A stretch of DNA of 64,000 nt from an uncultured Roseobacter sp. (lineage in GTDB: Bacteria; Pseudomonadota; Alphaproteobacteria; Rhodobacterales; Rhodobacteraceae), in NCBI RefSeq assembly GCF_947493125.1, contig NZ_CANLQB010000002.1, forward strand, positions 124,001 to 188,000, written 5' to 3'. Shown piece by piece: positions 47,071 through 47,405 of this stretch. The translations under genes were made by a program, and so were the position numbers. Within the stretch, counting starts at the first letter, position 1; each line of letters starts with the position of its first letter. Under the pieces are notes generated by a model. The model worked only from the letters and a program-made list of their open reading frames with translations, was not told the DNA's origin and searched no databases.

Positions 47071-47217
47071 GGGTTTGCATATTTTTGGAACAATGAAAGA
47101 CACATGTCTTTGCCGTTGCCGGCAGAGCCGCGCCGTTAACGAAAAAATGCTTGGTGATTTCCAAAACCTGTGCGACGATTCTGTCAACGTCAACAGATAG
47201 GTAAAGGAGGTGATCCA

Positions 47218-47274
47218 GTGTCGAGAAAGGTATTGGAGCGAGGTGTCGGAACAGCTTTGGAGGTCGCCTGCTGA
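47218..47274 (+). CDS. Putative leader peptide, 18 aa (VSRKVLERGVGTALEVAC, GTG start)
   Basis: Follows a full-length Shine-Dalgarno; very short, so coding status needs data; the SD overlaps the G of GTG so initiation spacing is tight-to-normal (core AGGAGG 7 nt upstream). Confidence 0.5.
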   Translation: MSRKVLERGVGTALEVAC

Positions 47275-47346
47275 GGCAGCCCTTGACGGGCAGACCACCT
47301 GAGTGGACATCGGTCTAACCGATCCCCCTCCTGAAGCCATTCGATT

Positions 47347-47375
47347 GGGCCGCACCACACCGTGCGGCCCTTTTT
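47347..47375 (+). terminator. Intrinsic terminator gggccgcac-cacacc-gtgcggccc-ttttt
   Basis: 9-bp perfect GC-rich stem plus T5. Confidence 0.88.
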
Positions 47376-47405
47376 CGTAGGCAGCTTTCATGGCAGAAGG
47401 CAGGA

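Follow-up and report, generated by a model that had tools for sequence, protein, structure and literature searches.

The element described here lies on the forward strand of a 64,000-nt stretch of DNA (the window), between a Vut_1 gene upstream, which we take to be of the queuosine-precursor-transporter type, and an RF-1-domain gene downstream, identified as arfB by family and size. A first-pass annotation had read the intergenic sequence as a possible ribosome-sensing attenuator of arfB. The anatomy of the element (ribosome site, ORF, anti-SD and terminator) is well supported by sequence comparison, and its features, all on the + strand, are listed below with the evidence from which they were assigned.

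47151-47179 (+): putative sigma70-type promoter, TTGGTG (47151-47156), 17-nt spacer, GACGAT (47174-47179); enrichment of -35 words, with a probable RNA start at about 47187
47203-47218 (+): SD1, perfect 16-nt complement of the 16S 3' tail; sequence match and duplex energy
47214-47237 (+): hairpin UCCAGU/AUUGGA, which takes up the 3' half of SD1 and the beginning of the GTG start codon; consensus fold, 98.4% of cells paired, mostly invariant
47218-47274 (+): 18-codon ORF VSRKVLERGVGTALEVAC, stop TGA at 47272-47274; stop position and frame comparison
47245-47249 (+): 5' arm GUCGG of an inner helix (codons 10-11); consensus fold and pair counts
47259-47263 (+): SD2, a second GGAGG inside the ORF, putative alternative partner of the anti-SD; GGRGG in relatives
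47274-47284 (+): short hairpin AGG/CCU beginning at the last stop-codon base; consensus fold, with G-C and A-U versions among relatives
47315-47319 (+): conserved CUAAC just upstream of the anti-SD; alignment, mostly unpaired in the consensus fold
47319-47323 (+): CCGAU, the 3' arm of the inner helix, shortly before the anti-SD; consensus fold and pair counts
47325-47331 (+): anti-SD heptamer CCCCTCC (in many relatives CACCTCC, the actual 16S sequence), pairing with SD1; consensus fold and pair counts
47347-47375 (+): intrinsic terminator (stem 47347-47370 and T-run) and end of the RNA; terminator scan and covariation

The 16S-tail complement and its genomic setting

The 16-mer AAAGGAGGTGATCCAG is, as had been noticed in the first-pass annotation, perfectly complementary to the 16S 3' tail. 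Since a search of the genome's own assembly did not find a 16S gene, the 16S end was taken from two genomes of the same genus; it reads CCTGCGGCTGGATCACCTCCTTT (continuing as CTAAGGA in L178), so that the complementarity is exact over all 16 nt. Beyond the match the element reads GTGTC, whereas CCGCAGG would be expected from the continuation of the 16S gene. The 16S end and its continuation together indicate that the match spans the single-stranded tail of the rRNA and stops at about the start of helix 45. The GTG start codon that had been placed directly after the 16-mer is present, but at 47218-47220 it overlaps the last base of the block rather than following it. The match is unique in the window when up to 2 mismatches are allowed (shuffled sequences average 0.05 matches), and unique in the 4.83-Mb genome at up to 1 mismatch, where about 0.002 exact matches are expected by chance. 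The calculated energy of the SD1:16S duplex is -29.7 kcal/mol, against -16.7 kcal/mol for the strongest start site among the 124 ORFs of at least 150 aa in the window; about 8 kcal/mol are needed to open the 16-nt block.

A relic of an antisense 16S fragment, or an accidentally strong SD, would explain why the block is identical to the 16S complement, and nothing further. The 16S sequence continues on neither side of the block, which is moreover conserved class-wide together with structure and ORF length; we consider an origin of this kind extremely improbable, and treat it as ruled out by the flanks and the conservation. Extended Shine-Dalgarno start sites, in which a longer stretch of mRNA close to the start codon pairs with the 16S tail, have been described, for example, in Staphylococcus aureus (PMC13009471). 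The element shares this extended pairing, but its match runs over the whole tail and hardly varies from genus to genus, and it is predicted to be masked by an internal 16S mimic within a short stand-alone RNA.

The genomic setting bears directly on the proposed attenuator, a cis-acting device in which what the ribosome does at the SD and short ORF would decide whether the terminator forms ahead of arfB. In most Rhodobacterales both the Vut_1 gene and arfB are found close to the element, with arfB downstream on the same strand, and an SD, a short ORF, an anti-SD and a terminator are the parts from which such a device would be built. The neighbourhood is, however, less constant than this reading demands. 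Another gene intervenes in about 10 genomes of the same genus, a count that rests on the position of arfB and on one example that was read, and two loci (L024 and L026) have no arfB within 1.5 kb. Outside the Rhodobacterales no neighbour is common to the loci compared, and the orientation of the downstream gene, as given by a crude gene caller, is random (41 same strand, 43 opposite). The SD/anti-SD/terminator arrangement is kept among relatives, but its position next to arfB is essentially confined to the Rhodobacterales, and does not extend to all of these. In the example that was read (L004), the intervening gene (1764-2120) encodes a glyoxalase-fold-like protein of 118 aa; about 9 further genomes of the genus were judged by the position of arfB.

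The terminator itself, called at 47347-47375 in the earlier reading, is real. Its stem and the anti-SD occupy separate stretches, and both form in the consensus fold described below; for this reason no antiterminator is apparent. Upstream, at 48-52 nt before the block, there is an excess of TTG-type -35 words in the Rhodobacterales and in other loci alike, while a strict scan for consensus promoters found none. The promoter-like sequence between the transporter gene and the element, taken with the neighbourhood data, makes an independent transcription unit the best reading of the element; on these grounds regulation of arfB in cis appears very unlikely. The comparison with leader-peptide attenuators of the trp type leads in the same direction: the short ORF, the competing SD/anti-SD pairings and the terminator are shared, but the element has neither a conserved downstream gene nor an antiterminator overlapping the terminator, carries a promoter-like sequence of its own, and is found next to randomly oriented genes outside the Rhodobacterales.

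Conserved structure and the short ORF

A consensus fold calculated with RNAalifold from an alignment of 53 Rhodobacterales sequences consists of the SD1:anti-SD helix, the UCCAGU/AUUGGA hairpin, the inner helix GUCGG:CYGR(C/U), the stop-codon hairpin and the terminator. Over this fold 96.2% of the cells are paired, and 14 pairs show changes on both sides; none of 500 shuffled controls was as good, and slid controls reached at most 58%. Covarying pairs, which the first-pass annotation had suggested looking for, are thus present in helices other than SD1:anti-SD. Nine of the 14 two-sided pairs belong to the terminator, in which all 9 stem pairs change on both sides, and the covariation of the inner helices is consequently modest. 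The SD1:anti-SD helix displays one-sided changes only, because its SD1 side hardly varies. The inner helix is conserved and had been missed in the earlier reading. The competing hairpin atcggt-cta-accgat, by contrast, had been proposed there but occurs in close relatives only and is not conserved beyond them.

The pairing between anti-SD and SD is borne out by the consensus fold, with 47325-47331 as the best-paired heptamer. Among 63 sequences, counted over the heptamer chosen because it pairs best, 7 of 7 bases pair with SD1 in 46 and 6 of 7 in 17; the CCCCTCC of the window forms 6 of 7 pairs, with one mismatch. The resting RNA is accordingly predicted to hide its ribosome site by pairing with the anti-SD. 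In other subtypes SD1 appears to be masked by different complements. The VSHCH type carries a 16S mimic, CUGGAUCNUCGCCUC, inside the ORF, although this pairing was read by eye and RNAalifold preferred a small local hairpin; in Bradyrhizobium a 15-bp hairpin would cover the SD block. In all 4 subtypes compared, the internal complements of the SD block are on average stronger than those of shuffled sequence.

The downstream C-rich segment could also be viewed as the business end of a classical base-pairing sRNA, in which CUAAC...CCACCUCC would pair with the ribosome sites of mRNAs, SD1 would mainly cap this segment, and the ORF would be a by-product. CCUCC-type sRNAs are common in alphaproteobacteria, and the CUAAC motif is strongly conserved even though the consensus fold leaves most of it unpaired. 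Such a role would leave unexplained why the full 16-nt tail complement stands beside a start codon and why the position of the stop is fixed, and we regard it as possible but unlikely. The known anti-SD sRNAs (mmgR/suhB, RF00519, and the 'cuckoo' RNAs) share with the element a CCUCC-type anti-SD and a terminator, and RF00519 gives a weak match (17.7 bits, E 0.24) to the 3' part of the element only. In those RNAs CCUCC is displayed in single-stranded loops, whereas the anti-SD of the element is predicted to be paired with the internal SD1; the element has in addition the 16S complement and the ORF.

The ORF of 18 codons reported behind SD1 holds up on comparison. Its stop falls at codon 19 in all 64 Rhodobacterales ORFs counted (TGA 28, TAG 22, TAA 14), and TGG is absent there, although A or G at both positions should yield several. 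One Rhodobacterales copy added after this count (L194) is an exception, with an ORF of only 12 codons. The in-frame ORF has 14-26 codons in 158 of 170 loci and is shorter in none, while in the other two frames of the same loci 58 of 340 fall within this range and 102 are shorter; these counts come from related, non-independent sequences and are not readable as probabilities. Selection on start, stop and frame, as expected of a translated small mRNA, can thus be recognized, and points to translation of the ORF, short of proof. A second GGRGG in codons 14-16, about 9 nt upstream of the stop, is found in 59 of 63 Rhodobacterales sequences; it too had been overlooked, and could provide an alternative partner for the anti-SD.

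The peptide is a different matter. If the RNA were a very small mRNA that used an optimal ribosome site to make a functional peptide of 18 residues, and its structure merely set the level of expression, then the conservation of start, stop and ORF length would be expected, as would the motif LERGVGT, which is recognizable across the Rhodobacterales. The coding sequence itself argues otherwise: pN/pS is 0.65; the changes number 201/162/197 over the codon positions, without codon periodicity; in codons 4-5 of the Rhodobacterales sequences it is the first two bases that vary and the third that is kept; and the peptide is wholly different between subtypes and even in L191, where the ORF still has 18 codons but another sequence. 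A small-peptide gene is therefore quite unlikely. By these comparisons the peptide is barely or weakly constrained while the length of the ORF is selected, and the fixed ORF ends together with the weak amino-acid constraint suggest that selection acts more on where translation begins and ends than on the peptide.

Relation to CC2171 and distribution

At the gathering threshold no Rfam family matched anywhere in the window. At relaxed E-values a relationship becomes visible with RF01867 (CC2171, a Caulobacter sRNA), which aligns to 47194-47371 with 31.2 bits (E 4.4e-5; cut-off 75). The window matches model positions 1-159, i.e. the full length of the model including the 5' block AAAGGAGGUGAUCCAGUGUC; since this shared block supplies much of the score, homology outside it is less certain. 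The cut-off of 75 bits is exceeded in none of the 121 genomes of the family, and is exceeded by 9 of 20 other loci scanned with Rfam. CC2171 and the element have in common the 5' block GAAAGGAGGUGAUCCAGUGUC, a similar length, an ORF directly after the block (the RF01867 consensus reads as a 22-codon GUG...UAA ORF), a 3' intrinsic terminator and their occurrence in single copy. They differ in that the CC2171 helix CAUUGUC:GACAAUG is not kept as such in the element, where the long-range pairing of codons 2-4 with the segment before the terminator has several mismatches, and in that only the element's branch has the downstream anti-SD masking and the inner GUCGG helix. A UCGAGA:UCUCGA-like helix, a putative homologue of the CC2171 helix, is weakly supported (-5.8 for the element's own sequence, -4.2 for shuffled sequence, with swapped versions weaker in 56%).

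The element thus looks to be a relative of an orphan sRNA family in Rfam, diverged far enough to score below the threshold, and that it is an independent CC2171-like RNA is in our estimation very probable. The first-pass annotation had held that an Rfam family with another established role would speak against the attenuator; RF01867 does match, below its cut-off, but no function for it was found in the literature searched, with subscription journals mostly outside the search. On CC2171/RF01867 that literature contains a list of predictions for Mesorhizobium and a note from Rfam that one covarying pair had been added, and work on Bradyrhizobium sORFs and Paracoccus sRNAs yielded nothing that could be mapped to the element. 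A Caulobacter study reports that its new ncRNA regions, most of them intergenic, were not translated according to ribosome profiling (PMC4117421), which argues against translation here unless CC2171 stands apart from them.

A search at the DNA level recovered the element from 18 of 18 genomes of the same genus and from 10 of 16 sampled genomes of the same family. With the RF01867 model, one full-length copy each was recovered in 96 of the 121 family genomes (E<=0.001); when 12 genomes missed by the model were viewed through the neighbouring transporter gene, at least 5 had a diverged copy there, bringing the total with the element's arrangement to at least 101 of 121. In the class as a whole, the 18-nt block with up to 1 mismatch occurs once each in 52 of 385 genomes, while the reversed control gave 0 matches; this count cannot gauge how strictly the block is conserved, because the search selects for it. 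In the scan of named genomes the matches listed are mostly from Rhodobacterales, Rhizobiales, Caulobacterales and Rhodospirillales.

A candidate ribosome-responsive RNA

The explanation that we prefer is that of a free-standing small RNA of about 190 nt (about 47187-47375), acting in trans and either responsive to 30S subunits or titrating them, instead of an arfB leader; for this reading as a whole we would put the probability at about 0.5. The alternative that the first-pass annotation had itself named, an independent small RNA or small mRNA that possibly titrates 30S subunits, is viable. In the resting RNA, the internal 16S mimic would mask the maximal ribosome site SD1. A 30S subunit whose 16S tail is free would displace the anti-SD, start at the GTG and translate the 18 codons; the roughly 30 kcal/mol returned by the 16S duplex, against the opening cost of about 8 kcal/mol, suggest that the subunit could indeed displace the mimic. 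While the ribosome sits on the RNA, the anti-SD would be open to pairing, either with SD2 or with other RNAs.

Under this mechanism the capture of a ribosome and the act of translation would be selected more than the peptide, from which it would follow that the RNA acts in trans. Its output might consist in engaging 30S subunits, in releasing the anti-SD, or in the peptide. This is the least certain step, and although the element looks built to respond to free ribosomes, a ribosome-responsive output in trans is a tentative proposal, for which we would give somewhat less than even odds. If ribosome capture is the function, the RNA would read the level of free 30S subunits. It is a more doubtful extension that the element represents a class-wide ribosome-gated switch, in which free 30S displaces the mimic, and either the freed mimic or the trapped 30S tunes translation globally; if true, such a switch would measure free 30S directly, as a molecular gauge.

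The orphan family to which the element is related would by this account have much wider relatives across the Alphaproteobacteria, one per genome wherever found, with a common logic that has gone unremarked as far as we searched: a complete complement of the 16S tail, an ORF whose length is restricted, and an internal mimic of 16S.

A few loci carry the block in other company. In L033, L103, L131, L143 and L049 the 5' block is followed by an ORF of 56-59 aa instead of a tiny one; it resembles a small secreted protein (MSHGA...ALFG...LLTAG), L103 and L131 being from Azospirillum, while the ORF of L049 differs in sequence and has a signal-peptide-like start. The 18-nt block stands with unrelated ORFs in L110 (labelled SAR92) and L142, and an MSSE-type element is found in L133, which is labelled as a gammaproteobacterial MAG and may be misbinned.
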